Part shown: piece after piece, positions 2,938-64,000 of the stretch
How positions within the stretch are numbered: position 1 is the stretch's first letter
Layout: each line of letters starts with the position of its first letter
Origin: Chrysomallon squamiferum
Taxonomy: Eukaryota; Mollusca; Gastropoda; Neomphalida; Peltospiridae
Direction of reading: 5' to 3'
Assembly: GCA_012295275.1 (NCBI GenBank)
Contig: CM022671.1
Coordinates: forward strand, 13,557,178 to 13,621,177
DNA: 64,000 nucleotides
Program-made: the position numbers and the translations under genes
Notes under the pieces: generated by a model
Databases searched by the model: none
What the model was told of the DNA's origin: nothing
What the model saw: only the letters and a program-made list of their open reading frames with translations

Positions 2938-2939
<2 letters not shown>

Positions 2940-28240: not shown

Positions 28241-28827
28241 CAAATGTGAGCCTTATACGCTTACCTATGTATAAATAGGTTAATTAATAGTAATTTATAA
28301 GGCAAAGATTTAAAAAACATAAACAAAATTTCTGTATGGTATCTATTCATATATTAAAATACATTACGACTTGAAAATAATAATAGGAGTATTTCAGTGA
28401 TGGTGATGATGAACGTTGAGGACAATGATTACGATAGTGATGATGATGAAAAATAAATAATTTGTAACACTTTTACTAACAACGATAGAAATTATTTTAT
28501 TCGATGATTCCTCAATAAGATCGAATATCCAGATGAATTCTGTTTTGTAAGGCATAATTAAAACAAATTTTAAAAATAAATAAATAAATAATAATAAGTA
28601 CATTCTTTAAAAGTTAAAATTTAAAAAGTTTGTAGAACATCGATCATTTTAATTTGTTTCAAATTAGAAACTGCTGTCAATAAAATTACCTACACTGTAT
28701 TGAAAAGGAGGGGACATAACTCTTATATCTTAATAAATATTTTTCTCATTCCTCTAACTAAGGGGAATAACTCTGATCAACCAATCAAAATTATTCAGGG
28801 GGTAAAATGGCCGGGAAATGTTCAAAG
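28241..28827 (+). repeat. Dispersed repeat of about 0.6 kb, copy 1
   Basis: Aligns in order over its whole length with 62598-63200. Shared blocks include GAGCCTTATA, TATTAAAATACATTACGA, a GATGATGA-rich tract, CCAGATGAATTCTGTTTTG, AGAAACTGCT, AATAAAATTACCTACACTGT and AAGGGGAATAACTC. The right end (GGGAAATGTTCAAAGT) lies about 95 bp upstream of the SUV39H start codon, so the repeat probably forms part of that promoter. This copy carries a CCAATCA box (28781-28787) that is missing from copy 2. Confidence 0.8.
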
Positions 28828-36853: not shown

Positions 36854-39800
36854 ACATTTAAAATATTTAATGTCTGTTAAACGTTCAAACATTTTTATGG
36901 ATGCAAGCATTAAAATATTTTTTCATCCATGGGTTTCATCAGTATTTATAGATGTACACTATTCTTAGTACAAAATGAAATTGATCCTATTTTGTTGTTT
37001 TTTTTTTTTATTATTCTTTAATAGATAATGTTAAATAAATATGTAAAATTATAATAAAATAATAACAATAAGAATATATTATACAATGAAATTTATTATA
37101 CAATAAAATTTATTATACTGTAATTATGTCTTAAAAGTAATCAGTTAATTATATCAAATGCTGTTTTATTTAACATTCAAATGTATTTAATATTCTTCAG
37201 ATTGTGAATACTTTACCATGAAAAAAATGACGAAGGTATAGAATGAAATTCAAATTAGACATGAGATATCCTTTTCTAATTCTCTGAAATGCCTTTTGAT
37301 ATTGGGGCAGTTGTTAACACAGAAATCAGTCAACATTTAAAATATTTAATGTCTGTTAAATGTTAAAACATTTTTATGGGTGCAAGCATTAAAATATTGT
37401 TTTCATCCATGGGTTTCATTAGTATTTATAGATGTACACTATATTTAGTAGAAAATGAAATTGATGCTATTGTTTTGTTTTATTTTTTATTATTGTTTAA
37501 TAGATAATGTAAAAATAAATATGTAAAATTTTAATAGAATAACAATAAGAATATATTATACAATGAAATTTATTATACTGTAATTATGTCTTAAAAGTAA
37601 TCAGTTAATTATATCAAATGCTGTTTTATTTAACATTCAAATGTATTTAATATTCTTCAGATTGTGAATACTTTACCATGAAAAAAATGACGAAGGTATA
37701 GAATGAAATTCAAATTAGACATGAGATATCCTTTTCTAATTCTCTGAAATGCCTTTTGATATTGGGGCAGTTGTTAACACAGAAATTGTTTTATTTTTTA
37801 TTATTCTTTAATAGATAATATAAAAATAAATATGTAAAATTTTAATAAAATAATAACACTAAGAATATATTATACAATGAAATTTATTATACTGTAATTG
37901 TCTTAAAAGTAATTGGTTAATTATATCAAATGCTGTTTTATTTAACATTCAAATGTATTTAATATTCTTCAGATTGTGAATACTTTACCATGAAAAAAAT
38001 GACGAAGATGATATAATGAAATTCAAATTAGAAATTAGATATCCTTTCTAATTCTCTGAAAAACCTTTTGATACTGGGGCAGTTGTTAACACAGAAATCA
38101 GTCAACATTTAAAATATTTAATGTTTGTTAAATGTTAAAACATTTTTATGGATGCAAGCATTAAAATATTGTTTTCATCCATGGATTTCATTAGTATTTA
38201 TAGATGTACACTATATTTAGTAGAAAATGAAATTGATGCTGTTGTTTTGTTGTTTTATTTTTTTATTATTCTTTAATAGATAATGTAAAAAAATAAATAT
38301 GTAAAATTTTAATAAAATAATAACACTAAGAATATATTATACAATGAAATTTATTATACTGTAATTGTCTTAAAAGTAATTGGTTAATTATATCAAATGC
38401 TGTTTTATTTAACATTTAAATGTATTTAATATTCTTCAGATTGTGAATACTTTACCATGAAAAAAATGATGAAATTCAAATTAGACATGAGATATTCTTT
38501 CTATTTCTCTGAAAAGCCTTTTGACATAGGGGCAGTTGTTAACATGAATCAGTCAACATTTAAAATATTTAATGTCTGTTAAATGTTAAAACATTTTTAT
38601 GGATACAAGCATTAAAATATTGTTTTCATCCATGGATTTCATTAGTATTTATAGATGTACACTATATTTAGTAGAAAATGAAATTGATGCTATTGTTTTG
38701 TTGTTTTATTTTTTATTATTGTTTAATAGATAATGTAAAAATAAATATGTAAAATTTTAATAGAATAACAATAAGAATATATTATACAATGAAATTTATT
38801 ATACTGTAATTATGTCTTAAAAGTAATCAGTTAATTATATCAAATGCTGTTTTATTTAACATTCAAATGTATTTAATATTCTTCAGATTGTGAATACTTT
38901 ACCATGAAAAAAATGACGAAGATGATATAATGAAATTCAAATTAGAAATTAGATATCCTTTCTAATTCTCTGAAAAACCTTTTGATATTGGGGCAGTTGT
39001 TAACACAGAAATCAGTCAACATTTAAAATATTTAATGTTTGTTAAATGTTAAAACATTTTTATGGATGCAAGCATTAAAATATTGTTTTCATCCATGGAT
39101 TTCATTAGTATTTATAGATGTACACTATATTTAGTAGAAAATGAAATTGATGCTGTTGTTTTGTTGTTTTATTTTTTTATTATTCTTTAATAGATAATGT
39201 AAAAATAAATATGTAAAATTTTAATAAAATAATAACACTAAGAATATATTATACAATGAAATTTATTATACTGTAATTGTCTTAAAAGTAATTGGTTAAT
39301 TATATCAAATGCTGTTTTATTTAACATTTAAATGTATTTAATATTCTTCAGATTGTGAATACTTTACCATGAAAAAATGATGAAATTCAAATTAGACATG
39401 AGATATTCTTTCTAATTCTCTGAAAAGCCTTTTGACATAGGGGCAGTTGTTAACATGAATCAGTCAACATTTAAAATATTTAATGTCTGTTAAATGTTAA
39501 AACATTTTTATGGATACAAGAATTAAAATATTGTTTTCATCCATGGATTTCATTAGTATTTATAGATGTACACTATATTTAGTAGAAAATGAAATTGATG
39601 CTATTGTTTTGTTGTTTTATTTTTTATTATTGTTTAATAGATAATGTAAAAATAAATATGTAAAATTTTAATAGAATAACAATAAGAATATATTATACAA
39701 TGAAATTTATTATACTGTAATTATGTCTTAAAAGTAATCAGTTAATTATATCAAATGCTGTTTTATTTAACATTCAAATGTATTTAATATTCTTCAGATT

Positions 39801-41885
39801 GTGAATACTTTACCATGAAAAAAATGACGAAGATGATATAATGAAATTCAAATTAGAAATTAGTAATCCTTTCTAATTCTCTGAAAAACCTTTTGATATT
39901 GGGGCAGTTGTTAACACAGAAATTGTTTTATTTTTTATTATTCTTTAATAGATAATATAAAAATAAATATGTAAAATTTTAATAAAATAATAACACTAAG
40001 AATATATTATACAATGAAATTTATTATACTGTAATTGTCTTAAAAGTAATTGGTTAATTATATCAAATGCTGTTTTATTTAACATTCAAATGTATTTAAT
40101 ATTCTTCAGATTGTGAATACTTTACCATGAAAAAAATGACGAAGATGATATAATGAAATTCAAATTAGAAATTAGATATCCTTTCTAATTCTCTGAAAAA
40201 CCTTTTGATACTGGGGCAGTTGTTAACACAGAAATCAGTCAACATTTAAAATATTTAATGTTTGTTAAATGTTAAAACATTTTTATGGATGCAAGCATTA
40301 AAATATTGTTTTCATCCATGGATTTCATTAGTATTTATAGATGTACACTATATTTAGTAGAAAAATGAAATTGATGCTGTTGTTTTGTTGTTTTATTTTT
40401 ATTATTCTTTAATAGATAATGTAAAAAAATAAATATGTAAAATTTTAATAAAATAATAACACTAAGAATATATTATACAATGAAATTTATTATACTGTAA
40501 TTGTCTTAAAAGTAATTGGTTAATTATATCAAATGCTGTTTTATTTAACATTTAAATGTATTTAATATTCATCAGATTGTGAATACTTTACCATGAAAAA
40601 ATGATGAAATTCAAATTAGACATGAGATATTCTTTCTAATTCTCTGAAAAGCCTTTTGACATAGGGGCAGTTGTTAACACGAATCAGTCAACATTTAAAA
40701 TATTTAATGTCTGTTAAATGTTAAAACATTTTTATGGATACAAGCATTAAAATATTGTTTTCATCCATGGATTTCATTAGTATTTATAGATGTACACTAT
40801 ATTTAGTAGAAAATGAAATTGATGCTATTGTTTTATTTTTTATTATTGTTTAATAGATAATGTAAAAAAAAATATGTAAAATTTTAATAGAATAACAATA
40901 AGAATATATTATACAATGAAATTTATTATACTGTAATTATGTCTTAAAAGTAATCAGTTAATTATATCAAATGCTGTTTTATTTAACATTCAAATGTATT
41001 TAATATTCTTCAGATTGTGAATACTTTACCATGAAAAAAATGACGAAGGTATAGAATGAAATTCAAATTAGACATGAGATATCCTTTTCTAATTCTCTGA
41101 AATGCCTTTTGATATTGGGGCAGTTGTTAACACAGAAATTGTTTTATTTTTTATTATTCTTTAATAGATAATATAAAAATAAATATGTAAAATTTTAATA
41201 AAATAATAACACTAAGAATATATTATACAATGAAATTTATTATACTGTAATTGTCTTAAAAGTAATTGGTTAATTATATCAAATGCTGTTTTATTTAACA
41301 TTCAAATGTATTTAATATTCTTCAGATTGTGAATACTTTACCATGAAAAAATGATGAAATTCAAATTAGACATGAGGTATCCTTTCTAATTCTCTGAAAA
41401 GCCTTTTGACATAGGGGCAGTTGTTAACGAATCAGTCAACATTTAAAATATTTAATGTCTTAAATGTTAAAACATTTTTATGGATGCAAGCATTAAAATA
41501 TTTTTTATTTCATGGGTTTCATTAGTATTTATAGATGTATACAGTATTTAGTAGAAAATGAAATTGATGCTATTGTTTTGTTGTTTTATTCTTTAATTGA
41601 TAATGTAAAAATAAATGTGTAAAATTATAATAAAATAATAACAATAAGAGTATATTATACAATGAAATTTATTATCCTTTAATTATGACTTAGAAGTAAT
41701 CGGTTAATTATATCAAATGCTTTTTTTTTTTATTTAACATTCAAATGTATTTAATATTCTTCAGATTGTGAATACTTTACCATGAAAAAAATGATAATGA
41801 TGATATATTACGAAAATCAAATTAGAAATCAGATATCCTTTCGAATTCTCAGAAACGCCTTTTGATATTGGTGCAGTTGTCAATG
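36854..41885 (+). repeat. Satellite-like tandem array, 12 units of about 440-470 or 312 bp
   Basis: The marker TTACCATGAAAAA recurs at 37213, 37673, 37985, 38452, 38899, 39364, 39810, 40122, 40588, 41026, 41338 and 41777. Spacings are 460, 312, 467, 447, 465, 446, 312, 466, 438, 312 and 439 bp. Three 312-bp units carry the same deletion of about 150 bp, joined at GAAATTGTTTTA. Units fall into classes by the sequence after the marker (GACGAAGGTATAG; GACGAAGATGATATAATG; or ATGATGAAATTC), and the last two classes alternate as dimers of about 912 bp. The outermost units are the most diverged, as expected for an array homogenised from its centre. The unit is strongly AT-rich with no coding frame. 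Confidence 0.95.
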
Positions 41886-43068: not shown

Positions 43069-43070
<2 letters not shown>

Positions 43071-43095
43071 GCTTAGCATTCTACTTTTTATTAGT

Positions 43096-44691
43096 ATGGA
43101 TCTCCAAGGTACGAAGGAATTACAAAACGGAAGAGTGAATATCAATATGGCTGCGTTCAAGAGAACCTCGGAACAATCAACAAAAGTGGTTCCATGGTTT
43201 GATAAAAATGAATTTTTTGATGTTTACGATGGTTTATTCAGCGATAATCTGCATCTAAGGAGATCAGCTATTAAAAAAATAACTGTCTGGAAAAGCCGTG
43301 TTCATCAAGATTTGTCAATTGCCATCGAAAGCACTGCAGCTTTAATGTCAGTGCTGTGCAATCACGAAGAAGCGCAAACACAAGGCTCAGTTCATGACGA
43401 AGATGAAAAACTTCGTTATCTGTACAGTATGGCATTAATACGGTTTGTTAACCATGTGACCGAAAGAGGCCAGAACAAAATTTGTGCCGTGCCAATTCAT
43501 GAGCTAGCTGAACAATATGGCATTCCTCAATGGATGGTTCGACTTCGGCACGAAGCAACGCATGGAAACTTGCCATCGATAGATATGCTATATTCTGGAG
43601 CTTTAACGGCATTACAATGGTTACATTCTGACTTTTGGATTGGTCATGTTTCGAAGCCTCCGTCGAACGATCTAATCGAATTAGCAGATAAAAACGTGGA
43701 TTCAACTACTGATAAACAGTTTCTGGGAATTTTGAAGACATTTGCAGATGAAAGATGCAAGCAGCTGCTTACATCTCAGAATACTCATTTGTATGATCCA
43801 TATAGAGTGCTAACAGATGAAGTTAAAAATATGTTAATGGTGATGGGTAAAACTGAATTAATAACTAGCATTTTAAATAATCACATAGTGTTTTCTAACC
43901 AATATTTTCAAGGTTTGGAAATCAGTGAAAATAACATTTTACATTTAGATACACTGTTATTACCTGAAAAATTGTTTGATTTATGGTATCCACTGATAGT
44001 CACACTGAAGATTTTAAAATTATTGCCATTTTTCTGTGAGCAGATGATTCATGCACTGGACAATGAAAATAAAATTAAAAACCATTTGATTGCAGGCTGG
44101 TTGATAGTAATTTGCAATGGGAATCACAATGGTAAGAAACTGTTCAAAGGAAAATGTAACCTTCCTTGGTTGTCACTGTTCAAACTATGCCTTCAAAATC
44201 CGAACAAGTTTACAAGGAAGATTGCAGAGGTATTACTTAGTAAAATGGATAGTGATGATTTACAAAAGAAAACAAAAATATTTGAAGACCTGTTGCACAT
44301 TTATTTTTCTGATGGTAAACACACAAGACAGAACTGCAGTGATGAGACCATTTACAGTGTTGCAGACATTCTGGCAAAGGTGCAGTCATGTAAGAATGCC
44401 ACTTTGGATGTAGAATCTCCACAGATTACCAAAAGATGGCAATTGAGCAGCATTCATTTTAACTGGTCATCAGTTCCACTGGGGCTTCTTCCACATCAGA
44501 ATATTACTTACAAATGTTTTGAGGTTGGTGATATTTCTTCTGATCAGTATTATCACATGGACGTTGATGAAGAAAGCAGATGTGGTTATGATGACACTGC
44601 AGATACAGATACAGAAACAGAAAGCAGTACCAAAACCTCATGGCCTGTAGAATACACCAATGTATTGAAGAAAACAATTGTTTTGTTCTGA
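43096..44691 (+). CDS. LAS1L: LAS1-like pre-rRNA (ITS2) endonuclease
   Basis: A single-exon frame of 531 residues. LAS1 is the HEPN-family endonuclease that cuts ITS2 during 60S ribosomal subunit maturation, working with the NOL9/Grc3 polynucleotide kinase in the nucleolus. The N-terminal Las1 domain is clear: VPWFDKNEFFDVYDGLF (33-48), an IPQWMVRLRHEATHGNLPS block (143-161) carrying the HEPN RxxxxH nuclease motif (R151, H156), and TALQWLHSDFW. The C-terminal WSSVPLGLLP segment is also typical of the family. It is shorter than human LAS1L (about 734 residues), lacking much of the low-complexity acidic region. A second ATG lies at residue 18. AATAAA at 44703-44708, twelve bases after the stop, suggests a very short 3' UTR. 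The next gene begins 0.8 kb downstream on the same strand. Confidence 0.93.
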   Translation: MDLQGTKELQNGRVNINMAAFKRTSEQSTKVVPWFDKNEFFDVYDGLFSDNLHLRRSAIKKITVWKSRVHQDLSIAIESTAALMSVLCNHEEAQTQGSVHDEDEKLRYLYSMALIRFVNHVTERGQNKICAVPIHELAEQYGIPQWMVRLRHEATHGNLPSIDMLYSGALTALQWLHSDFWIGHVSKPPSNDLIELADKNVDSTTDKQFLGILKTFADERCKQLLTSQNTHLYDPYRVLTDEVKNMLMVMGKTELITSILNNHIVFSNQYFQGLEISENNILHLDTLLLPEKLFDLWYPLIVTLKILKLLPFFCEQMIHALDNENKIKNHLIAGWLIVICNGNHNGKKLFKGKCNLPWLSLFKLCLQNPNKFTRKIAEVLLSKMDSDDLQKKTKIFEDLLHIYFSDGKHTRQNCSDETIYSVADILAKVQSCKNATLDVESPQITKRWQLSSIHFNWSSVPLGLLPHQNITYKCFEVGDISSDQYYHMDVDEESRCGYDDTADTDTETESSTKTSWPVEYTNVLKKTIVLF

Positions 44692-45483: not shown

Positions 45484-46237
45484 ATGGCATCAGCAGAGAA
45501 GAAAGTAATCTCGCTGAAAAATGTTACCTGTCAGACGTCCACAACAATTACAGGAAACGGGGATTTCATAATTGATGTCGGTAAGCAATGCTATTCACAC
45601 AATACCGTGAATACGTACAGTGATATACATAACACATGATAATTACAGTGAATGTGGTACACTGAAATCTGCACAGAGATAGTTGTTACATTAATGTCCT
45701 GAATGTATCTGACACCGAAAGTAGGTTAAAGGAAAAATAGCATTGTTTAATTAGAGAATTTTAAACAGAATGATAATCAAATACCCTCATTATTTTCTGT
45801 GAGTAATAAAATGACTGTCAGTAATAAAATAATACTGAAAAGTAATAAAAATAAAATAGTGTAGAATCGATATTTAAATCAATAATGAATAAAGGGGAAG
45901 CTGCTATAATTTTGTGCATAAATAAAATGGTTTATGATTATCTATCAATCAGTATCTATAAAGCAGTAAAAAATTATTACAAAACTAATAATAATTAATA
46001 GTATGTTTATTTTAATAATTTATTTTACTAACATAACTGTATGACTCATGAATTAGGTATTTTTTATTTTATAATGTCTTTTCTTTATATATTATTCTGT
46101 ATTTTCTATATTAACATTTTAATTATTCATATTCATAATTGTTTTATTTGATTTTTAAAATTATGCTATGTACATAAACCTTTTATTTATTTAATGATAG
46201 AAAGGAAATCACCAAGAAATGTAGACAAACATAATGA

Positions 46238-46269
<32 letters not shown>

Positions 46270-49200
46270 TGGGCGTGTGTGTGAATTCTATTCTTGGCCT
46301 TTGTCAGCACAAATTTAATGAAATTTTTTTGTGATTTTTCATATGAACAGGTCTAAATTCTGAAGATACTGTATGTATGATTCAGAAGGATTGTGATGAG
46401 GAAACCAAACTATGTGTTCCATTGTTTGCAATTACAATATGGCCAACAAATGGGATTACCATTACACCAACCAACAAGGACTTGAAATGCTTTGTCAATG
46501 ATAAAATAATTACCTCAGAAACCAACTTATTACCAGGTGATATTATAATATCTTATTTATATTTCTATTTGATTGTATATAAGAAAAATATAGTATTCAA
46601 AATTTCATTTATTTGGTGTTTAGATAACTTAATAGATTTTATGGAATAATATATACAAGTTAAATAATCTTTTTTACACTTAAAACAACTGTGGATATAT
46701 AACTTAAGGAATGTATCTAGCAGTCAGATTGTAAAACCAGTTTTGTCACACGATCACTAGTCCTTTAGTGTATTGCCAGAAAAAAATAAAATTTTCAGTG
46801 AAATATACTGAAATGTGATATTCATATTTAGGCATTATATTATATCTAACAACAACAATGTTATTTTTAGTTTTTTTCATGACTTCTGAACATTGCTGCT
46901 AATTGTATGAGTTAGCTGAATTAACATGTATTTTTAATATGTGATATACTTCTATAAGAAAACACTTCAAATGTGCCTATCATGGATACAACCTCTGATC
47001 TCATCAGTGATGATTTCTGTCCAAGACAAGGAAGGTGAAAGAGTACCTTTTTAATGTATTTGGTTATATCTAGGATCAACTATAGAAATTGGAGACAAGA
47101 TATTACAGTTCTTTGATGGTCCTGTTCCTCGCATGCGAAGACATCTTCCTCCTACACCTGGAGTTTGTGTTTTACCAGCAGCACCACCAAAACCCAACAG
47201 AAAAACTGAAATTGTAGCCCCAGCTAACAAGGCAGTCAAAGTAAGCAGAAACATTCTGAATATTGTTTTTCTCAATAATATCATGTGTATTTAATTCAGT
47301 AGTTAGAAAACAAACTGTTGTTTTTTATTAGAAAGGTTTATACAATGAAGAAAGTTAAAAACCTCAGTTTGTGTTAAATTTTATTTTTGCTTATGATATG
47401 TTGCAAACTTTAAATTCAGTAATGACTTTGAGAAAATACTTGATTTGGATTGACTAATCAAGTTGGTTTAGAGTAAATAAATGTGACATTGAATCATTTG
47501 TAATTTTCATTTAATTTACTGAGGCTGGTTTACTTGTGTAAGAATAACATTCATTGTTTGTAAAATAATTGAGACACTATCTATTAAATTTGCATTTTGT
47601 ATTTCACTTGTTAGGCAATAACAGCTGATTGTAATTTATTTCTAAATGTATTACTCATATTTTTTGTTTATTAGGAGCCTGAATACTGTAACGTGTACAG
47701 AGACTGGTGTGTTGTTCATCCCCCAACCTTAGAAGAAGAGCTCATATCTCAGCTGGAAACCAAAGAAGAGGTAAAAGTTACACAACTCCAAACTGAATTA
47801 ACACATGAAATTGTGAATTATTTTTCATACTTTGGAAAGACAGATTGTGTCTCTGGGATGAGACCGTAGGTTGAGAACATATTAAAGAGTGAGCAAAGAA
47901 AAGTGTATGTAAAAAAATAACTAGATAGTGATTAAAAAATAGCCTATATAATGACTTTAATAGTTTTCATTTATGTTATTATAACTGTACAAACCCAAAC
48001 TGTCAACTGATTAAAAAGCATTAAAAAAAACCCCAAAAGGATATGGTAAACCAATATTTACTCATTTAGTACTGATGTAAATATAATACATTATTCAGTA
48101 TATGTAGGCCTGTTCATCAGTTAAATTGATTTGTTTATGTTTCATAAACCAAATATTACAGTTTTGAAGCTGTTATCAACATGTTGTTGATTATTATACA
48201 TTTAGATTGCAAATTTGGCAGCAAGCTACTTAAATCGACAGATAAACATGCACACAGATACTCGGATGACATCTGCTACCATGGATGAAGTTTTCAAAGT
48301 ACTCCAGGTTAGTTCTAACATTTACATCTGAAGTTTTATTAGAGAGAAATATAAAACTTTTTGTTCCCCAAAATCTTCATGTGTTATATAGAAAATAATA
48401 TTTTAATTTCTAGATTAAACATTTCTTCTCTGACAAAAACTCTCAGCATGCGTAATGTCAGTTCATTTTTTTCAAAAACTACACTTAATTGCAATTGGCA
48501 GGTAATGTGCCATCCTGCTTTTAGCACTGATGTGTTTTTTATCTTTTTTCTTTTCCTTTTTTTTTTGTTTCTTTTCATAATGACATTATCTCCATTTCTG
48601 ATTTCCTGGCTATATCTCTAAAAGTAATATACTTAAAATAACAGTAAAATACGTTTAAATTATTTTTTATTTTAATTTTGTTTTCCTATTATGACTTTGT
48701 TTGTCACAAGATTTAAGTATGAACATATAATTGATAATAAATACTGATGATGTTTAATCCTAGGATATAGCTTATCACAGGAAGGATATACTTGTTGCTT
48801 TTCTGAAGGAAATTGCAAGAGAGTTGAATGAAGTACCCAGTGAAGACAGGCCGCATCATGAAGCAGTCATCTGTCTTCTTGTAGAAATGATCAAACAATT
48901 CCTGGTAATATTTCTTGATGTTCTTCCTCCGTTAGGACTTTTATATTTTCTTATGTTTCAATTGTTTTTCAAAATGAATATTTTGTTTTCAGTTTGTAAA
49001 ACAATAATAATATTGGATAGCAGCTATACATTTAATATTGTAATATTCATTTTGAGATGAAATTTTGAATACTATATTTATCTTATTAAGCTTTATCAAA
49101 TAAATATATTTACTAAATAAAGTATTTACTATATCTATTGTAATCTTTGATGCTTAAGATTTAGCAAAGAAAGTTCATTACAGAGTTAGTGAATTTTGGA

Positions 49201-52200
49201 CAAATGCACATTAAAGTAAAAAAGAAAAATGTTGCATCAGCTCTGAATTACAATTACGATTATTAATTTATGTTTTTAACAGGATCCCATATCTCAGGTT
49301 ATCTTGGTACTGCAGTTGTTACGATCACTGAGTCACATTCATTGCAATTTGCCCATTCTAATCAAGTGTCATGCACCAGCAGCCGTCTTAGGCACTATGT
49401 CAGCATACATTAATGAGGCAGAAGTCCAGCTAAATGCCATAGACATTTTGGCAAAAATTGCTACATACATACCTCTACCGAATGAAAAGGTAAGTCATAA
49501 CCACTACATCATAAATCTCTGTAAAGTAGAAGGTCACCTGTATTTCACATTGTAAATTTAAGAATTACGAATAATTAGCTTACATGCATTTTTGTTAACA
49601 GTACTAAATTATTTAAAATCATCAATAATCATCATCATCTAACTTCTACTGAAATAATTGCTGTCAGTATTTAAGTATCTGTTTACTCATGTGTTTTTAT
49701 GGTACAAGATATTGGCTTTTTCAAAATTGTGGTATTTGGGCATAAAAGTTCATTTGATTTGACTGAAATATGTGTGTGTGTATACACCCACACAGTGAAA
49801 GATGAACAAAGTGGCTCAAATATGAATGTACAAATATCTAAATATTGTCTTCAAATTTAACTTAATAAAAAATATGAACAGTTGTTCCAACCTAACACAT
49901 TGTTTTATTTGGTTTTGTGATTTAGATTCCAATGCGTGAACCTGGTGTTGAATTGTTACTCCGTGCTGTACAACGCCACTCTTCATATATCCTTATTGTG
50001 CAGTCTGGATGTCGTACATTGTGTAATCTAGCAACCATGCTGTATGAAAGAGCCAATCAAATTATAGACAGTGGTATTTTAACTAGTTAAATCATAGATT
50101 GTTGTTTTTTAACCAGTCAAATCATAGACAATGATATCTTAACCAATAAAATCATTTATTTTTTAGAATTTAAGGCATACAGCTCTGATGAGATATTAAC
50201 TAATGAAATTCTTTAATGTTGATGTTGTTAATTTGTTAAAAGAGAAATGGAATTCTGTATTAGTTACACTGGATAAGCATTTAGAAATGAACATTTATAA
50301 AATAACCAGAATCACTGAAAAGAAAAGCAAAGGAATTGAATTGTGTTTTAGTTTAATGTTGTAATCTTGCTCATTTTTATAAAAATATATCACGATGATG
50401 ATTAGTCAGGCTTTGCACAAATTGTCTGAAAATATTTTATACAGTTAAATTTGATGGCCAGCTAGTGTCTTTGGTTGTCTTGGACAGGTGGTTGTCATGT
50501 AGAAGTGGCTGCAATAGCTGGCTTAACTTCATACAGATTTTTCACCTATTGTAATTATTATATTTTGTTAAGAACACTTTCATTGTAAGTTCTAAAAGTA
50601 TTTATTACCCTCATCTAAATATACATTCCAACAACACTATCTTCATTTCTTAATTATTTTGTTCTGTTTGACCATTTTTTAATGTTTTTTTTGTTTTTTT
50701 GTATAGGAAACCTGATTAACTCTGAGCATGGAATATGTTTAAGCAATTTAATGACATTGTTGGAGTACATGTATGAAAACTGCATGGCTGTTGTTCAAAA
50801 TGGCATTAGAGACTTCAGTGATGATCTTACAGTCAAAACAGACGGTCGCAAATTTTTGTACATCATGGCCAAATTAACACAACTACAGTGAGCATTTTCA
50901 TTATTATTGTTGTTTTTGTTTTTTCAGTTACTGTTAATGTTATTACACACAGGGAAAATCACAGATTTTTGAATAGGTTTCTAACATAAACATAAAGCAT
51001 GCTGACATCAGAATATATATGCTGAACATATTTTTCATGTCATAATTAATTAAATATATATAGTAATGGAATTAACTTCTGCTATAATAATTGCAAATAT
51101 AATTGTTTTTTAAAGTTGATTATTTATAAAAAATATGTTTATTAATTACATTTTTAATTATTTTTTTAATCTTCATTAAATCACTTCATTTATTAATGAT
51201 TTATAACATTGCAGCATTATGACTCAAATAATTAGCAGGTGAATTAGGTTTTGACAGTCCACTACATATATATATATATATATATAGTGGACTGTCAAAA
51301 CCTAATTCACTAGGGACCAGTGAGATGTGCCAGTTTAGACAGAGCATCTGTATTTAAAGATTAAAATGACATGAAATTGGAATATGGTTTATTATGAATG
51401 TAACAGTTAAATATCTTTTGCATATTAGCTAAGAAATAGTTAGGTAGAGAAATGAGCTGCATTAAAATTTTACTTGAATGCAGGATTTTATTTAAAAAAA
51501 AAAAAAAAAATTTTTTTATAACTGCTGTGTACCATCTTTCCTTCGAAACAATGTTAATCAAGATGACACTGTGATTACCCTGCATGCTTAATTTACAATG
51601 ATGCAATCTTCCATCCATGAAATTAGGGATATCATCATATGTTGTCTGCCTGGCTTTGAATGCCTAAATTCCCCCCCGGTTTAATTGGCTCTACATTGTT
51701 TACCATAGGATCATGGCTGTGTTTTGGTGCATTGCTGATGAATAAAATAATATTTTAATGTTGTTGGCACCTCTGCTGGTTACACTGTTGTAAACAGTCA
51801 TTAAAGAGTTGTGAAGTCATCCATTCTCTCCAGTTGCCTGTCAAGCTCACAAGTACAGATTCATGTTTGAGGATTTTGGCCTTTTCCAATTATCATTGGT
51901 TTCATTTTTTTTTCCTATTGCACTGCAGCACAGTGAAACTTTTTCTTTTTGAGTTTTATAAGCAAGTATCCTGTCCAGTAAGGCTCAAACAAACTGACCC
52001 ATTTTGTAGCAGTTAAGGATGTCATTTTTTTCAAAATTTCCAATTATTGTTGGTAGACACGTTTTAAAGTTGTCAACAATATCATGACTGGCATCTGCAT
52101 TGATGGAATTATCTGATGTTAAACTGAGTTTCCATTGAAGTAAAAATCAGTCAGAAAGGGACATTGTTTTGGCTCTTTCCTGCTGAAACCATTAATACAA

Positions 52201-55200
52201 CAGTCCATTCAGACTTTTTAACATACCAGTCGTTACTCACTTTCGTGCAGTTGCTGCTGATGGTCACATCATTTTAAAATATCAGATACTGTCAGTCTTC
52301 CATCATAAGTATTTCTGTTAACATACTGGTTTTAAGGAAGACTTTTCTGTTAATTTCACTTGAGACTGGAGTGAAAGTTCTATATATTTCAGTTTTTTAG
52401 ATCAGTATGAAAACAATAAGACAATACAAATTGTTTGACATGTGTGTTTATATTATATAACTTGTTCTTTTGTTCTGGAATTTACACCTGGAATCCCAAT
52501 AAACTAATCTCTGGATTAGTCAAGTTTTGTCCATAATAGATTAATAATAGCTGCATAGGACTTTGAAATAGTACTGGTGTAAAAGAATATTTGTTTTTTC
52601 AAGGAAAGTTACTACCAAATTCTTAAGATTGTGAATATAGTGATAAGATTAATTTTTGATAAACACAGTCATCAAAATTTGTCCTGCAAAGCCATGCACA
52701 TTCAATATTAAAAATTGATATTTTTGTCTCCAATGTGCAACTGAATGTATCATATTTTTCAAAATTTCTGGTTTTAGCATCCCCCCGACATCACACTCCA
52801 GGACTTGGTGTCTGTGGTGCTCATCCTCTCAGGATTTGCCACAAATTGCTAATCTACTCTTCAGACGATCTTAGCATTCCCTTCTTATAAAAATATTCTC
52901 CTGATAATTCATTGGTTATGGCCGAGGAGGTAGATAAATTTCATAAATTGTCCTAAAACGAATTCTACATTGCAGGACTTCTTGATGTGTACTAATTATA
53001 ATCTACCTAAGTCCCAGTATTTGTTAATTGCCCTTTAACCTGGTTGACAGTGTATGCAGTCAGTAGATAACAACTAATTGATCCTTTACCATAGTGCAGT
53101 TGTTAGCACAAAGAGTTAATTTCAATGGTTATGTTTTTGGTATTACAAGTAAATAAAATAAAACAAAATTTTAAAATGATACAAATACCATAGTTTTAAC
53201 AGCTCTGGTATACATCTCTCTATCCATATATGTCTTCTGTCTGTGTCTATGTCTCTTTGTATCTGTGTTGGTCAGTTAAGTTTATATTTTAATACAATGA
53301 ACTATTAACCAACTAAGTAGCATAATTTTTTATTTAAACTTCAGTAATACATTGTTTCCATAATTCAGTTCCAGGATTCATTTTGAATGCAAAACATACA
53401 GTAATGAAAATATAACAATATCTGTGACTAAAACTATTACAAAATAGATATTGATGGTAATGATTATAAATAACAGGGGATTCGGGTTTTTTTTAATCAA
53501 AATTGAAAGACTGGGTAATTTGTAGTAAATATACAAAACAGTGCTCTGTGTATTGAGTAAGTAGTTTCAACCACTTTAACAAGGCTAATACATACTGTTA
53601 CTATATACTCTGAACAACTATACCATGATGTTTATCCTATTATTTGTCTGCTTAACTAGTTAAAATCCCATTATCATAATCAGTGGTGTATATCAAAATG
53701 AAGAGTCATCAGTGGACTTACTTTGACATTTCAGGTTCAAATAAGTCACTTGGTCCTAATATTTTGACAAAAATTTCAGAGGTTATGTTATTGTAGCACT
53801 TTAATTAAACCCCATACAACATTTTTCAAACAGAGGGTGGAACAGCCTTACAATAGGATTATAGATAATAAAAGAATTATCAATGATAAATGGATTTGGG
53901 GATGAATGTTTCAACCCTCATTTAAAAAAAAAGGAAAATGCCTATTTTCAAAATGGAAGTAATGATAAAGTATCCAGACAAATGCCTCCCACAGTTTTTT
54001 CTCCACCTACCTACAAATTTAAATATATTTTTCTGAATCTTTCTTTGTAGTGGCATTGAGTCAGATTCAGTAGACACACACTTTATACAGTAATTACCAC
54101 AGAATGACACCTGAAAATAATCACAGAGTGGGGGGAACAGTATTTGAATATTTGCTGACACCAGTTTACATGGAAATGCAGATTAGTCAAAGTCCAGTTT
54201 TGACTTGGTAACATTAAAATGTACAATTATTAAATAATTGTTTTTCAGGCAGAGAAAGAATAGATGGTTAAAAATGTTACAAGAAAAGGAAAGCTTGGTT
54301 CAGAATTTAGAGGAATTATCAGATGATAGTAATTCTCCTCTGGTTTATCATCAAAAATCAAATAACAGCAACTCTCATCCAACACCTTATAATGTAATTG
54401 ATGGTGACAACCCTCAAATAACAACTGGTGTTGCGAATGACCATCACAGAGATGAAAGCATTCCCATACAAGTTGAACAGAAAGATGTTAGCATTCTTGA
54501 GAAAGATTATAGGGTCGCTGGACCTGTAAAGATTAAAGAAACAAATTCAGAAGGAATTCTAAAGAGATCAAGATCTTATGAAAATCTACGAAATTCTGAA
54601 AGACGTGTAAACTTTGACGATGACATTGCTCCTGGAGTGTATGACTCATCATCGACATCATCTAGTGATGTTGAGGAAACTGGATTGGAGGATGGAGCTG
54701 GAGATATTGGTAACATTTCAGAAAGCACTGCAAAAGTAAACATAAATTCTACTGTTGAAGAAAATACTGCTAAATTTACAAAAACAGAGGATCAAACTTA
54801 TGGAATGATATCTGATACAGCAAAGCATAACTTAGCAAAAACAAAAACTAAGAAGATAACAGCATATGACAATCCTATTTACATGGAAAGAGGTTGTGAG
54901 ATTTTACAGAATCATACAAATGATTCTTCTCTGAATATTAACACTCCTGAAATAACACCTTCTGCAAAAAATGTACTGAATACAGATGATGGTTGGAGAG
55001 ATGAAAATGAAGCAAACAAGAATGTGTCTTCATATGACGAAATAGATATTGTTCATGCTCTTGTACATTGTCAACCATCTCAAACCCAAAATAGCAACAT
55101 TTCACAATCTGGATCACAAGTCTGTCAGCCTGGGTCACATATTTCTAAGTCACAAGTTTCACAACCAAACAGAAATGTGATTTTAGAAAAAAAATAGTAG

Positions 55201-57422
55201 TCATGATACTATAAAGCAAAACATAAAATCACAATCAATAAAACCTGAGCCAAAAGAAACGACAGATACATTGACTAATTCAATGGATGATATTCGACAT
55301 AACCATAATGAAGATAGCAGAGACGTCTTTCTTTCTTCTTCTTCTTCAGAAGTGTTAAATTCCAGAAGTGCCAAAGTGGAAACAGTTTCTGGTCAACTTG
55401 CATTTGTGAATTCTTTAGATTGCTTTGAAGATCTCACTGATTGTTCAGCAGAAGACATAAATTTTCTCAGCAGACTCACAAAAGCTCAGGTAAAGAAATT
55501 TTTGCATTTGAATATTTTTTTTTTATTTATTAAATGTAGAAAAGCTAGAATTCTTCTGTAAAGTGTTAAAAGCTTTTTATTTCTTTCTCAATTGAAAAAT
55601 TATATGAAACCCTGTCCATTGGTTATTTTTACAGTGAATTAAACAAAATTTCTCAATATTTATTTATTGACTTAAAACTTTTTGTAATTAGCTGAGTAAT
55701 TAGATGGTAGAATTAAATTAGATAAATTCCAGATTTACATGAACAAGTCATTTTTTTTTATATTTATTATTAATATTTAAGTAATAGAAAATAAATTCAG
55801 TTAAATGGTAAGACAAAACAACATCTAAATTAACATTAACATAAACATAATATAAAACAATAATGCATTTTTAAAAAAACAGAATAAATAAACTGTACAA
55901 TGAATTTTCATATATAATTACTCATTTAACTAATTATACCAGTTCCACTAACTGGACAAAATATTACATATATTAAACATAAACTAAACATATACATCCA
56001 AAGACAACAATAAAAAAAGTCACTTCATACTATTTTCACTGATATTTCAGATTGTTTGTCGAGTGTGCTCTCTGGCTTTGCAAGATGAAGACAGACGAGC
56101 TTACAGCATTCTTGACCAGCCATTGAGAGATGTCTTAGAACAAGAACACTTGTCAAAGGTTCTGCAGCAGTTTGTTGCCAAGCAGTACAAATCTGAACAC
56201 ACACTGATGGATCTTGATCCGAGCACCGCTATCAGTCTGATTGATGCAGTCCGATACAGGTAGATAATATTTGAAGATATATTAATGTATGTATTACCAT
56301 CAAATCTATTTTTTAACAATGATAATTTGACAGACATATAAGAAACAGTCCAACCTTGTGGTGTGTGTGTGTGTGTCTGTGTGTGTGCGTGTGTGTATTT
56401 TTATGCAATGGTTGTGGGATATACACCTTAATTTTTTTGTCATAGAATAGGATATTTAGACTGATTTTGAACAGTTTTTAAATATGTCTTTTACTTGTTT
56501 TCTGAAAACGTTGTAAATGTCGTTTATTACTTTTCCTTAATAAAGATATAACACAAAAAATTTAAAGTAGCACAATGTTTACTTCAGTTAAGACCAATAC
56601 AGATAAAAATTAAATTAATAGTTTTAGCTTAAATTTAATGTTTGAAAATTCTAAAGATTTATTAAGTAAAGAAATGATATATTTATGAAATTTAATGTTT
56701 GAAAATTCTGAAGATTTATAGAAGTAAAGAAATGAAATATTTATGTTACGCAGATCACAGGTGGCTCCTGATGTTGTTCAGAATACACTGGTGGGTGTTG
56801 TCAGAAATATTAATGATCATCTTCGGCCATGTTGCTTACACCTGGCACTGGCTTTCTTTAATAACATATTTAATGATTTCAGTCTCAAAACTATTGTATC
56901 TGGTAAGCTGATGTTTGTTAATATGTATTGTCAGTATATTATTTTAAGTAATTTTGGGCAGGATTCACACAACTGAATATGTTACAGTAAATGTTTTTAA
57001 CAGAACCTATATTTTGAGTGGAATATTTATTTTGTACATGTTTTAAAATTATTAAGAATAAAAATTTATTAAAATATCTCATTAATTAATAAATGGTTCT
57101 GGTAAAATACTATTTTATTTACAGATGTGTGTTTAGTTACCGAGGATCAAAATTATTCAGACCAGAGCTAGTAGCAGATTTTTACAGATTCAAAGTTATA
57201 GCTTTTATTTGTTATAAGTATTGTCAAAGATAATTTGTGGAAATGAAGATCTAAACACATTATTTTTCACTTCTGTAAAGTGCTACTGTTTTATTCACAG
57301 ATCCAAACTTCTGTGCCAAATGTTTACATTATTTGGAGAATGATGTGGGAACTCTGCAAGACAGGTCTGGAAGTGATTCTGTCATTGGAAAACTAAGAAA
57401 TATTATGGGATTTATCAAATGA
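45484..57422 (+). CDS. Unrecognised protein of about 1014 residues with FHA-like N-terminus (13 exons, one frameshift)
   Basis: Exons: 45484-45580, 46351-46536, 47074-47240, 47675-47770, 48206-48307, 48764-48904, 49283-49489, 49926-50073, 50707-50887, 54249-55489, 56051-56259, 56754-56902, 57301-57422. Every junction has GT-AG sites and matching phase. Residues about 8-105 resemble an FHA domain: the C-terminal strands (FVNDKIITSE-LLPGSTIEIGDKILQFF) fit, but the usual GR and SxxH phosphothreonine-binding motifs are not seen. Residues 180-440 are helical and repeat-like (ARM/HEAT-type, tentative). Exon 10 is a long Ser/Asn/Gln-rich disordered segment. The conserved-looking C-terminus (856-1014) is helical with two CxxC pairs (CRVC, CAKC). 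Exon 10 shifts frame by one base inside an A8 run (55187-55194). Function unknown; a nuclear or cell-cycle role would be a guess from the FHA-like fold. Confidence 0.8.
46238..46283. repeat. (GT)n microsatellite in intron 1 of the FHA-like gene
   Basis: About 20 GT units with GGGTGTGGGCG interruptions, about 70 bp before exon 2. Confidence 0.9.
50888..54248 (+). other. Largest intron of the FHA-like gene
   Basis: 3.36 kb, donor GTGAGC, acceptor TTTTTCAG, phase 2. It contains a perfect 26-bp inverted repeat (51239-51310). From about 51.5 to 53.0 kb the sequence is less AT-rich than its surroundings, with Ser/Pro-codon-like stretches broken by stops in all frames. This could be an old transposon remnant, but no transposase motif was identified. 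Confidence 0.6.
51239..51310. repeat. Perfect 26-bp inverted repeat around an AT loop
   Basis: The left arm (51239-51264, GTGAATTAGG...CCACTA) is exactly complementary to the right arm (51285-51310) and they are separated by 20 bp of alternating AT. RNA or single-stranded DNA would fold into a stable hairpin. It may be a minimal foldback element or an intronic hairpin. No clear target duplication flanks it. Confidence 0.9.
55187..55194 (+). other. A8 run at the frame change in the FHA-like gene
   Basis: Upstream coding runs in one frame into TAG at 55195-55197. Downstream coding runs in the next frame, which has its own TAG at 55184-55186. The two frames overlap only across this A8 run. Seven As would restore continuity. 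Confidence 0.85.
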
Positions 57423-57806
57423 ATAAATTATCTGAAAATCTGTCAGATATGACATTCCGCATGCTGAATGATCTTAATATGTATTATACTCTATACAATA
57501 CGATTCATGAAGTGTTTCTTTAACCTCACAGTAATAAAATTAATCCATAAAGACTTCATATGTTGGTCCATATTCAGGAAGCAGGATAAATAACCATGAT
57601 TGAATGACAACTTTACATTTACACTTGAATAGTAAAATATTGTTGTTTAAATGTTTGTGTTTTGAGGCTGATCAAACATGCCTGCGAATTTTTAATATAG
57701 AACTTCCAGTTTATGTAAAACATATGCAGATTTTACTGGATTTTAAATGATGAAAGTTTTTTTTGTGTGTTTTTTTTTTTTTTTAATATTTATTTATTTC
57801 TTCTTA

Positions 57807-57846
<40 letters not shown>

Positions 57847-58098
57847 TTCACAAAAATAGAGTGAATTACTGATTAAAAAGCAGATCATGTGTTATCTATT
57901 GTACTAACTTGCGTAATTAACTGTCATTCATTGCATTTGATTAGAAATCTTCATCAATTTTTTTAATTTACCCTTTGAATTATCTTTACTGTCAAAGCTG
58001 ATAATATATTTTTAAACTTCAGTACATGCTCGAAGAATACACTGTTATGAATGGATCACATGTACAATAGATAACTGAATGATTGTCATTCAGTATAA

Positions 58099-58100
<2 letters not shown>

Positions 58101-58141
<41 letters not shown>
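58101..58141. repeat. (AC)n microsatellite
   Basis: About 20 AC units. Confidence 0.95.
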
Positions 58142-58142
<1 letters not shown>

Positions 58143-59334
58143 TAGTTATTTACTACACTTAAATCAAAAATTGAATTTTTTTTATACACTAGGTGCAATA
58201 ATAATATAACAATGGACAATATGCTTTACTTTTTAATTTATCAGTGACCATCTCTTACTGTTTGCTTACATTTATGATTATTTTTATTTATTAGTGTTTA
58301 TAACCAATTATTTTAGCTCATCCATCTATATTTTGGGTTACAGAATTGTATATGTTAATCGTGTATGTTTGTTAGAGATATAAGTATTTCATATGTGAGG
58401 CAGTAGTAAACACACATAATAATTATTGATATAAAAAGGTAAAAAATATTTGTTTTGTGTTGCCGGGTTTGACTGTCACCAAGAATCTATAAAAATTTCA
58501 ACTTTTCAAATTTGAACAAATTTTCCTTGATTATAGAAATATTTTTAAAATTCATCAAGATTCTTCAAGTATTTTACTATTATTATTGTTGTTGTTATTT
58601 TTGTTACTGCTGTAATTAACAATAATGAAAAAAAATAACATTAAATATATTATTGTTACAATTTTTATTATTCTTGTTATTATTAGTTATAGTTCTAGTA
58701 GTAATAGTACTTCAGCCACTGTCACTACAACTGTTATCACTATTAATATTACTGTTATTATCACCATCAGATACACATACAGACAGAAACTAATACATTT
58801 AAACACACACACACATGGTGAGTAATTATGATATTTATAGTACAAAAGTGTTTTATTCTGTTGATTTATTATAACTGATATCATGCTGCTTTAATCAAAT
58901 ATATTATGAAATTGCCTGTACTTGTTTTAGGTGATATAAAACAGTTTTCAGTGTTTATATAGATTTTCATCATTTCTTTCTGTTGTTGTGTTAAGTTTAT
59001 TCACTGCATCATTTTAATGAATTTGTATTATTAAATTTATTTTTAAAATGTATTTACATTTTAGTTTTGATTTACTGCAACTGTTATTTCTACTACTAAT
59101 TTTTTTACTACAACCAACCACTGTTATTATTTACTCATGCTATCAGATTAAATTTGTGTTGTATGATTTATAATCAAAATAATATTTGATCTGCCTGTGA
59201 TATATATATAATAATCAGTTATTTTAGTTTTCATTTTAGTCTTGTAATACCTGTGATATATTTTATTACTTCATATCTTTATCTTTATCAAGTATTTGTA
59301 TCATATCTGGGACTTATTTATTACACATACATAT

Positions 59335-59380: not shown

Positions 59381-59882
59381 TAACATACATTACATCATAT
59401 TACACGCATAGATATATTAGTATGTTAATTTTAATTTTATATTTGTATTATTTTTACAATATACATAATTTAATATATAGAAATGGCAGCCTTATTGGTT
59501 TTATGTATTTATTAGTACATTTAGTTGTAAATAAATATTTTGTTGTAGCACGTTAGATAATTATATAAGATTACTGAAATAGATTTATAATCTATAGAAA
59601 AATGATGAAATATTTTACAAAAATAATGTGCAACAGGTTGTGAAATAAACTGTCAAATCAGACACTCTAGATTATTTTATTTCATTTTATTTCATTTTTA
59701 ATTTAGCTATTACTGAAGGTACAACAACATATATTTTGGGAGGAATATTTTTTTTTAATACCTTGGTGAGAGATCACTATTATAATACTGAGAGATAAAT
59801 GGTGAAAACTACAAAAAAAAAGAAAAAGAAAAAAAAAGGGTAAAATGAAAATTTATTGTAAAATGTTTATAGTTAGAGCATA

Positions 59883-60661
59883 CCGTATATACTTGTGTAC
59901 ATGGCGACCTTATGTATAAGTCGATGTGTATTTTAAGACCAAAAATTGCGTCATTTTAGGTATTACTTGTGTATAAGTCGACTGTAGATTCCAGGCACCG
60001 TCACTATTTTTAGACCAGTGTGACAGTGCCATGAAGGCCTCCATTGTACGCCTACTGTAACATAACTTGCACGAACATACCATAATAACGTAAATGCATG
60101 TATTACACGAGCTATAGCCTAAATGTATCATAAATAGTATCTCTTTAATGTAATAGGTCTAACATGGAGACCTAACTTACCGTTATATTTAGCCGTTCTA
60201 TGATTTACAAAATTTGTCGGTAGTGGATATTAATGACGATTGCAATATTATTTCACCAAATTCTTTACAATTAAACAAGTGAGTTTTGTTTATGAAATTA
60301 GGACCGATATTTAGTGCAATTTGGCAGAGAAGTCTGTATTCCTAGATCATTGCAAGACGCCGTAAGGCATAACGCCGTACTGACGGTTCTCTTGCTTATG
60401 TCATTAAACAGAAGAATATCATGTTTTACATTCATACTTGGTTTTGTTATTTAATTTTTCAAAATTTTTTATACGATAAAAGTATATTTTTGAAAAGCTG
60501 AAAGACCGCGATTATTTTAGATGCATCCCGTAGCAAAAAATAGTCAAAATGGTGACTCTTCAGCAACAGCTACAAAAGCATTACCTATGTATAAGCCGAC
60601 CCCCAAAATATTACCTTAATATAGTCTCCCAAAAATTCGACTTATACACAAGTATATATGG
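59883..60661 (+). mobile_element. TA-flanked non-autonomous DNA transposon
   Basis: The left end reads CCGTATATACTTGTGTA; the right end read from the other strand is CCATATATACTTGTGTA, matching at 16 of 17 positions. TA dinucleotides flank both ends (59881-59882 and 60662-60663). A sub-terminal motif TGTATAAGTCGA recurs near both ends in both orientations (near 59913, 59968, 60583 and 60640). The 779 bp carry no transposase frame. A TA target duplication fits the Tc1/mariner/pogo group; the family name is not assigned. Confidence 0.85.
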
Positions 60662-61025
60662 TAATTTAAACAAATGTGAAATATTACATAAACATTTTAA
60701 AGTGTTTTGTAAAGTACACATTTTTTTCTCATGTTATTGAACATTGCATTATTGATAGTTTGTTTTATGTCAATTTCACTTTAATAACAATAATAAATAA
60801 AAAGGAAGATGACATTTAAAAAAGGAACAATTTTGATAGATGAAATATATATTTTAAAATTATCTACTGTACACAACTTGGTTATGTTAAATGTTCTGAC
60901 AGTTTACTAAATGAGACATTCATTCTATGTTATATGGCCCTTCCTATTATTAATACTACTGTAATAGTGGAAAAGGATATTTATAAATATAAATAAAATG
61001 GAAAGTTTTTATTATTTTAAATTAA

Positions 61026-63488
61026 CTAGTCCAGACAGAACTTTGGCTTATCTGTACACACACTCTGAAAAAAAAAATTTAAACAATTATAAAAACTGAA
61101 AACTGGTTTTCGAGTATTTCTTTAGACATGTTATTCCCTTTTATTATTTTAATACACTATAACAATTGTAACTCTTTATTTATGTAGATGCATTGTTACT
61201 GTCTTTATTATTTATTACTATTGCTATTAATATTATCATAGTCATCATTATTAATATCATCATGATCATCCTCATTACCTTTATTATTAGTGGTAGTAGT
61301 AATAATAATAATTATAATAATAATAATAATATCATCATCTGTATCAAAATACTTTACTGAAATGCATTTTGTTATCTTCACTAACAAATATGTAAATCAT
61401 AACAGAAGCTGTGTTTCAATTATTCATTAGACATTATTTTAAATGACTGATATGTTCATTCATATAAATACACTGAATATTCAAGACACCATGAAAATTA
61501 CCTGCATTAAAATTTGTTTCATGGTAAATGAATTTGTATGTTGGTTTATTATTCTGTTAGAAGCCTGGTTCACTTCTTCATCAGGGAAATGATTAATAGG
61601 CCAAACCTGAAAAAAGACATCTAAAAGTTTTATTATCTGGTTTTTCAGTTGTTGTTGTTGTTTTGTTTTTTTAATTTATAATGATATAAAGTTATAAAAA
61701 CAAAGGAAATTTTAACTATTTTTTCTTTCTTTTTTTCTGGATGAACTAACACGGACTTGTGTTTTAAAAATATCTGTTTATAACTGAGAGCAAATCTTTG
61801 ATAGACAAACTGTATGTATGGCATTTACCTTTATTTGCAGTTCTTCAAAAAACACTTGTGCAGATACAGTATGAATTAATTCCACTGGAAGAGCAGTACA
61901 TTCAACAATATATGGTCATCAGATTGATTGGTTCTATAATCACTGAATAACTATTACATTTCCTAAAATAATATTCATGCATGTTATAATTACTGTTTAA
62001 ATATAAAGCACAATGATATTCAGATACACACAAATATCTTCAATATGTTTATGCACTTATATGCACAAATAGGAGCAACAGAGAACTGTGAATGGCTAAA
62101 ATATTGTTAACAGAACTCTTTTAATACAAGTATTGGAAAGTCACTTTCTCAGTTAATACAAATGGATAGAAAGATTAAATTCTGTATACCATGTAACATT
62201 TCAAACTGACCTTCCCTTGCAAGTCTTACACTCAAACATTTATCACTGAAAATACTGCATTTCATACAAAAATCTATTATGAATTAACTAAAATTATCTA
62301 ATCTTTTTGTTTTGTCTTTGTTTTTTCCCCCAAGTTTATTTTTATGTTTTGCAATAATAATAATGATGTTTATTATAATAATAATTTCAAAGAAGGAATA
62401 AAATTAAACAGCTGGGAAATGTTCAAAGTGTGTGTTATTATGAATTAACTAAAATTATCTAGTCTTTTTGTTTTTTCTTTGTTTTTTTCCCAAATTTATT
62501 TTTATGTTTTGCAATAATAATAATGATGATTATTATAATAAAAATTCAAAAAAAAAAAAAAAAAAAGAAGGAAAAAACATTTTGCCTATACATAATTTGA
62601 GCCTTATATATTAAACTGTGCTTACGAATGTATAAATGCATTAATTAATACTAACTGTTAAGGCAAAAATTTTAAGAACATAACTTTTTTTCTGTATGAT
62701 ATCCATTCATATTAAAATACATTACGATTTGAAAATAATAATAACGATTATTTCAGTGATGATGATGATGATGATGAAGACGACAACGACGAGGACAATG
62801 ATGATGATAGCGATAACGAAGGTGATGATAATGATAAATAAATAATTTTTAACACTTGCTAACAACGATAGATCTTTACTCGATGATTCCACAATTATGT
62901 GACAATAAGATTGAGTATCCAGATGAATTCTGTTTTGTAAGGCATAATTAACACAAAAATTAAATAATAATAATAATAATAAGGACACTCTTTAAAAGTT
63001 AAAATTTTAAAATTATGTAGAACATCGATAATTTTAATTTGTTTTAAATTAGAAACTGCTTTCAATAAAATTACCTACACTGTACTGAAAAAAAAAGGGA
63101 CATAACTATTGTATCTTAAATATTTTTCTCGTTCCTGTAACGAAGGGGAATAACTCAATTAAAATTATTCAAGGAGGTAAAACAGCCGTTAAATGTTCAG
63201 TGTGTGTGTATACGGAAACCGATATTACTCATTATAGTCTATAGATACATAATCATGCCTAAACATCAACGTTCTTTTCTTAACTGCAGTAATTAAAAAT
63301 ACAATTTTCAACACAAATCCTTACCTTCTATTTCCTCCGTAGAGCACTAACCTCCTATGATAACTTGTTCCGTTATCCAAGCGATAATTCTTTGACGTAA
63401 CGGTTCTGAAAGTTGGCTGGATTCACTTTAGCGCTACTAAATTAGCGAACTCTTTGTCCGATGCGGAATGATGTATAACAAATTCCAT
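61026..63488 (-). CDS. Small unrecognised gene of five short exons, with in-frame TGA near its possible start
   Basis: Minus-strand exons in transcript order: 63488-63325, 62245-62211, 61884-61829, 61606-61502 and 61064-61026. All have GT-AG sites (donors GTAAGG, GTCAGT, GTAAAT, GTAATT) and phases 2, 1, 0, 0 agree at every join. The joined frame has 132 sense or recoded codons and ends KPKFCLD-TAG. Peptide landmarks are YHRRLVLYGGNR, ELIHTVSAQVFFEELQIK and VWPINHFPDEEVNQASNR. Starting at ATG 63488, codon 22 (63425-63423) is TGA. Alternatively exon 1 begins at an acceptor (ACTTTCAG) giving 63405-63325, with the true start upstream. Exons are too short to show up as long open frames. A poly(A)-like AATAAA follows the stop. 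The product is not recognised. The match of four phases argues for a real gene. Confidence 0.6.
62275..62560 (+). repeat. Direct duplication, period 161 bp
   Basis: The block starting GAATTAACTAAAATTATCTA at 62281 recurs at 62442 with few changes, through TTTATGTTTTGCAATAATAA. It lies inside intron 1 of the small minus-strand gene. The junction carries GGGAAATGTTCAAAGT, identical to the right end of the dispersed repeat at 28241-28827. Confidence 0.85.
62598..63200 (+). repeat. Dispersed repeat of about 0.6 kb, copy 2
   Basis: Same orientation and block order as 28241-28827, with a longer GATGATGA tract (62757-62837). It lies in the first intron of the small minus-strand gene, about 125 bp from the first exon boundary. 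The CCAAT-containing segment of copy 1 is absent. Family unknown; the ends are approximate. Confidence 0.8.
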
Positions 63489-64000
63489 ATTTCTAAAATA
63501 AATTGCATTATTATATATTTGAAATTTTATTTTTGCCATAGATCTGAACCACGTATGCTTTATTTTATTTAAAACTGAATATGTTTTATATCTTAGAAGC
63601 TTAAACTTATGAAACTGTGAACTATTTATTTAAAACAACTGACGTACGATAAACTGTTTGCTGGCTTTCACAGCGGCAGGAATTGTTCACTGCCTTTATT
63701 TCATTGTGGCGGGATTACAATTTTGTTTTTTTTTGTTTAAGAAGTTAGGTTTTGGAGCTAAATTTGACTTTAATCGCTACCCTGATGATGCAGAACGTTT
63801 AAAGTTATTAACTGTATAAATGCATAGTTTATAAAAATAATATAAATAAGTAAATAATTTTGTAATATTAGTAAAGTTATGGTTGTTTGTTGTTTTATTA
63901 TTATTAATGTAAACTAATGATGTAAAGCATATACATTAATATCTGTTTTTAAATGACTTTCTTACACTCTAATCATTCTGTATAATAATGTATATCATAA
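63489..64000. other. Right edge, upstream of the small minus-strand gene
   Basis: AT-rich sequence with an acceptor-like tract on the minus strand directly before the possible first ATG (AATTTATTTTAG), so an additional upstream exon is possible. An upstream in-frame ATG also exists near 63542. No complete exon is supported. Confidence 0.4.

Follow-up and report, generated by a model that had tools for sequence, protein, structure and literature searches.

A probable small spliced minus-strand gene in a 64 kb segment of the Chrysomallon squamiferum genome

Results and discussion

Four short minus-strand exons, found between 62245 and 61026 in a 64,000 nt stretch of Chrysomallon squamiferum DNA (GenBank assembly GCA_012295275.1, contig CM022671.1, positions 13,557,178–13,621,177; here called the window), are probably best read as a small spliced gene. 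The window consists of AT-rich, intron-containing animal DNA. We put the probability that these exons are coding, with a 5' end that is either near or distant, at about two in three. This reading is preferred because the exons are recovered by an exon-chain search, their score is rare in Markov sequences, they are richer in GC than the introns between them, and the DNA around them has lost CpG in the manner of a gene body.

Four exons join in one open reading frame

In the initial annotation, five minus-strand exons with good splice sites and matching phases were described as forming a single frame. Reading of the window confirmed AG/GT borders and consistent phases for the last four, which thus have the GT-AG introns, phase and open frame to a stop of a spliced coding gene. 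Joined, they form one open frame of 77 codons that ends in TAG and translates as DKCLSVRLAREVELIHTVSAQVFFEELQIKVWPINHFPDEEVNQASNRIINQHTNSFTMKQILMQSVCTDKPKFCLD-stop, and the peptide quoted originally is present in it. The other two frames of the same join contain nine and seven stops. The first exon as drawn, 63325–63488, does not extend this frame; its donor is in phase with the next exon, but the frame from its ATG meets an in-frame TGA at 63425–63423, so the five exons are not one reading frame.

In the order of transcription, the four exons are a 35 nt exon (62211–62245) that reads DKCLSVRLARE, a 56 nt internal coding exon (61829–61884) that starts with two bases of a split codon and continues ELIHTVSAQVFFEELQIK, a 105 nt internal coding exon of phase 0/0 (61502–61606) that reads VWPINHFPDEEVNQASNRIINQHTNSFTMKQILMQ, and a 39 nt terminal coding exon (61026–61064) that reads SVCTDKPKFCLD-stop. 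When all 3325 minus-strand GTs are scored with untrained splice-site weights, the first three of the four exons have donors within the top 0.7%, 1.8% and 1.0%; among 2866 AGs scored likewise, the last three exons have acceptors within the top 1.3%, 3.9% and 2.6%. The 35 nt exon has a strong donor (4.85) and a poor acceptor (−0.25; top 18%). An AATAAA at 61013 starts 12 nt 3' of the TAG and is weak evidence, because AATAAA/ATTAAA occurs at approximately 6.5 per kb on the minus strand.

The codon score of the four-exon core, 0.069 bits per codon, lies within the range of the training open reading frames (ORFs) (0.029–0.231, n = 6) and exceeds that of 88% of 1181 noncoding open runs, 11.7% of which score at least as high. 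The GC content of the core exons is 0.345 vs 0.247 in the introns between them, and part of this excess is expected as stop-free stretches were picked.

Recovery of the exons by chain search

The exon-chain search combined codon usage from six ORFs in the window (2400 codons) with the splice weights. An initial scan under tighter criteria, which looked upstream of 61884 for a partner exon and required an acceptor score above 1, did not list the 35 nt exon. The later search used an acceptor threshold of −1, chosen when the score of that exon (−0.25) was already known. In it, the best minus-strand chain terminates in the exons described here with or without an ATG requirement. When an ATG was required, at intron costs of 2 and 5, the 35 nt exon was read from ATG 62265 and not from its acceptor. 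A 10 nt micro-exon (63075–63084) that the search picked was set aside as it sits within a dispersed repeat (62620–63199), and the search was rerun after the repeat sequence in the intron had been masked (62405–63209). When the four exons were used in a tblastn search for further copies in the window, they matched themselves and two other places, with E values of 0.28 and 10, which were taken as chance.

The search behaves sensibly on the plus-strand genes, where it returned long chains that take in the SET-domain and FHA-like regions, with doubtful last exons. Among the matches listed, the best plus-strand chains within 60.5–64 kb span 62757–63819, which is outside the CpG-poor part.

Markov sequences of three orders and real sequence were used as comparisons. 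The best chain with upstream exons was reached by 0/500 Markov sequences at each order and at both intron costs, and the model starting at ATG 62265 by 0/1500 (cost 2) and 1/1500 (cost 5). The figures for the four-exon core are fairer, because the best chain holds the micro-exon inside the repeat; per 2000 sequences of orders 1, 2 and 3, the core was reached by 1, 7 and 10 at cost 2 and by 0, 7 and 6 at cost 5. For real sequence, the rest of the window was divided into 66 segment-strands of 3.5 kb. The best chain was reached by 14/66 (cost 2) and 15/66 (cost 5) and the ATG model by 24/66 and 29/66, respectively; many of these segment-strands hold genes. At cost 5 the core score is 23.9, and 27/66 reached it, counted among the best 40 of the 66. 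Within those best 40, 15 of the 27 represent the coding strand of an evident gene, and the others mostly overlap coding ORFs on one or other strand; two minus-strand segments, with exons within 4066–6620 and within 2176–4372, hold no recognised coding sequence.

CpG loss across the exons

The stretch that covers the four exons (60664–62500) has a CpG observed/expected ratio (o/e) of 0.07 and a TpG+CpA o/e of 1.39. From 61026 to 62265 only two CpGs are found where 21.8 are expected (Poisson P about 9e-8), and the TpG+CpA o/e is 1.42 vs 1.03 over 63325–64000, a flank in which CpG is normal (o/e 1.16). The plus-strand genes at 30–42 kb have a similar signature (CpG o/e 0.22, TpG+CpA 1.34), and in the first 29 kb, which holds two GPCR ORFs, the ratios are 0.87 and 1.21. 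The CpG depletion and TpG/CpA excess expected of a methylated body are therefore both present, may be common to the exons and the plus-strand neighbour, and support a putative transcribed, methylated body at 60.7–62.5 kb. Outside the intron repeat, CpG is normal from 63210 to 63800, and this is a candidate location for a promoter and first exon. In intron 1, normal CpG mostly reflects the dispersed repeat, not a promoter.

An octopus study (PMC9476566) reports gene-body methylation on highly expressed genes. The locus resembles such methylated multi-exon genes in its CpG-poor body, TpG/CpA excess, CpG-normal flank and GT-AG introns. It differs in that its protein would be very short (84 or 98 aa, or 104 residues in the model that lacks a start) and has no recognised domain, and in that methylation is deduced here from the CpG pattern.

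Neighbouring genes and repeats

The exons were originally placed in an apparent gene desert. This does not hold, as a multi-exon plus-strand gene extends to 57.4 kb and, less surely, to 58.96 kb. This gene (45494–58962) includes helical repeat-like exons and an FHA-like match that is weak and misses the cut-off (E 0.34); Pfam names nothing else in it, and its last exons are uncertain. It follows a LAS1-family ORF (43069–44688; Pfam Las1, E 1.9e-45) whose best named match is from another mollusc, Gigantopelta aegis, at 47% identity. The CpG o/e shifts from 0.87 over 1–29 kb, which contains a SOCS-box ORF as well as the GPCR ORFs, to approximately 0.2 over most of 29001–60000, which contains the chromo/SET, LAS1-like and next plus-strand genes. 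Stretches of normal CpG at 43–44 and 45–46 kb resemble gene starts. Downstream of the SET-domain exons there is a tandem array (37475–40235) of 312 and 467 nt units that match at 91–95% and have a GC content of approximately 0.21.

A transposon-like element of approximately 780 bp (59881–60663) has terminal inverted repeats (34 nt, 79%). It contains 26 CpGs vs 22.7 expected and is probably a fairly recent insertion, as its CpG is undepleted between two depleted stretches. The dispersed repeat at 62620–63199 has a second copy in like orientation at 28259–28824, with approximately 78% identity, and sequence resembling its end is also found at 62406–62435. Directly upstream of ATG 62265, intron 1 also contains a tandem duplication (62275–62403 and 62436–62562, 91% identical).

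Three models for the 5' end

The donor of the 164 nt first exon as earlier drawn (63325–63488) is very strong, ranking in the top 0.06% of the 3325 GTs, and fits the phase of the 35 nt exon. However, the frame from the ATG of this exon (ATG 63488) reaches the TGA at codon 22, after 21 codons, and the joined read lacks an ATG between this TGA and the 105 nt exon; the first exon is perhaps 5' untranslated. Reading of the TGA as selenocysteine is disfavoured. An Rfam search of the whole window, with a library that presumably includes SECIS models, found no family at gathering score, and a selenoprotein is unlikely on other grounds too.

Three models for the 5' end remain. In one, coding starts in 62211–62265. 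The frame of the 35 nt exon stays open upstream to an in-frame ATG at 62265–62263, which has a weak context (T at −3) and would give an 84 aa protein. If this ATG is not in the first exon an upstream acceptor is needed, and a candidate at 62411 (score 3.1) would make it the first ATG of its exon; exon 63325–63488 would then possibly be untranslated. In the next, an 81 nt exon (63325–63405) with an acceptor at 63405 (3.2) and the frame TVTSKNYRLDNGTSYHRRLVLYGGNR is phase-compatible with the 35 nt exon, giving 104 residues without a start, and further upstream exons are needed. With the repeat masked, its addition lifts the core score of 23.9 to 36.6, which is matched by 17/66 segment-strands, 15 of them coding strands and two antisense over coding ORFs, again among the best 40 of the 66. 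In the last, a 98 aa protein from ATG 63488 uses an internal donor at 63427 that fits in phase, but the donor is poor (−0.65) and the total, 22.2, falls short of the core score, and we disfavour it.

As CpG is normal at 63.2–64 kb, we lean towards a gene start there and hence towards the 84 aa model; judged by splice and codon scores, the better model is the one in which 63325–63405 is coding.

Relatives

Pfam gave no family for the peptide at E values of up to 10. No match up to E 10 was found in the protein database either, where one and two candidates shared words with the query and the residues of 63325–63405 were also tried. The protein-database result is a weak negative, because a control, the LAS1-like ORF, showed that this database holds molluscs but found no close cephalopod entry in it and only relatives at 47% identity or less, so that close relatives of the peptide may be missing from it. 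There was no meaningful match among PDB sequences, and the PDB matches returned (E 0.61, and 0.99 or more) were taken as chance. At the available sensitivity, the original statement that the peptide fits no known family is upheld. In its lack of a Pfam, protein-database or meaningful PDB match, the locus is like the lineage-restricted (orphan) genes of molluscs; unlike in that class, restriction here is putative, as the control peaked at 47% identity in the protein database.

Alternative readings

In a variant that overlaps the preferred reading, a longer gene has the four exons at its 3' end and continues upstream through 63325–63405 and beyond the window edge at 64000. The in-phase join, strong donor and higher score of the 81 nt exon point to it, and more upstream exons would be required, as the joined frame lacks an ATG upstream of the 105 nt exon. 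However, the normal CpG at 63325–64000 resembles a gene start, the exon stretch is 40% GC and could be an untranslated first exon whose frame is open by chance, and no homologue was found even when its residues were included. We regard the longer gene as possible but doubtful. Two further explanations would exclude a coding gene. In one, the open frame is a coincidence within a non-coding spliced transcript or a gene relic that is expressed. This would account for the missing clean start codon, the modest codon signal, equalled or exceeded by 11.7% of noncoding runs, and the failure to find a homologue in a database whose control reached only 47% identity. It would not readily account for a frame that stays open over four phase-matched exons while the other frames contain nine and seven stops, and we consider it unlikely.

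Ranked below that is the chance occurrence of splice-like sites in AT-rich DNA downstream of the plus-strand gene, with no transcript of their own. Scores as high as that of the core are common in the real segment-strands (27 of the 66, from the best 40), as are those of the ATG model (24 to 29 of 66). The CpG loss could also belong to transcription of the plus-strand neighbour, whose body is likewise depleted; the depletion could continue that of the plus-strand gene, because the normal-CpG gap between them is the transposon-like element. Against chance, the core score was reached in just 0–10 of 2000 Markov sequences, and the strands that match the 36.6 model (among the best 40) are evident coding strands apart from the two that overlap coding ORFs in antisense. 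We judge chance alignment improbable.

The proposed gene

Under the preferred reading, a protein-coding gene would span 60.7–63.7 kb on the minus strand, with its promoter and first exon most likely in the CpG-normal stretch at approximately 63.2–63.8 kb and with repeat insertions in intron 1. The 77 residues encoded by the last four exons would form the C-terminal part, or almost all, of a protein that is small, intracellular and probably helical. The CpGs of the gene body would most simply have been lost via germline methylation, in which case transcription is most likely constitutive. We would propose a housekeeping protein or a subunit of a complex, small and fast-evolving, and not a secreted peptide made in particular tissues, a step that we regard, taken by itself, as tentative and perhaps unlikely to hold. 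Far less probable is a lineage-restricted or de novo gene for a small protein, germline-expressed and methylated, with a 5' part derived from an inserted repeat; that part could comprise the candidate acceptor at 62411 and the bases that precede ATG 62265.

This is probably a real, ordinary small gene, and nothing suggests a new kind. No general view would change if it is real, and it would be another small gene of the type that open-frame scans miss. As the CpG-poor body and CpG-normal flank flag the same span as the exon chain, their combination may aid annotators of mollusc genomes.
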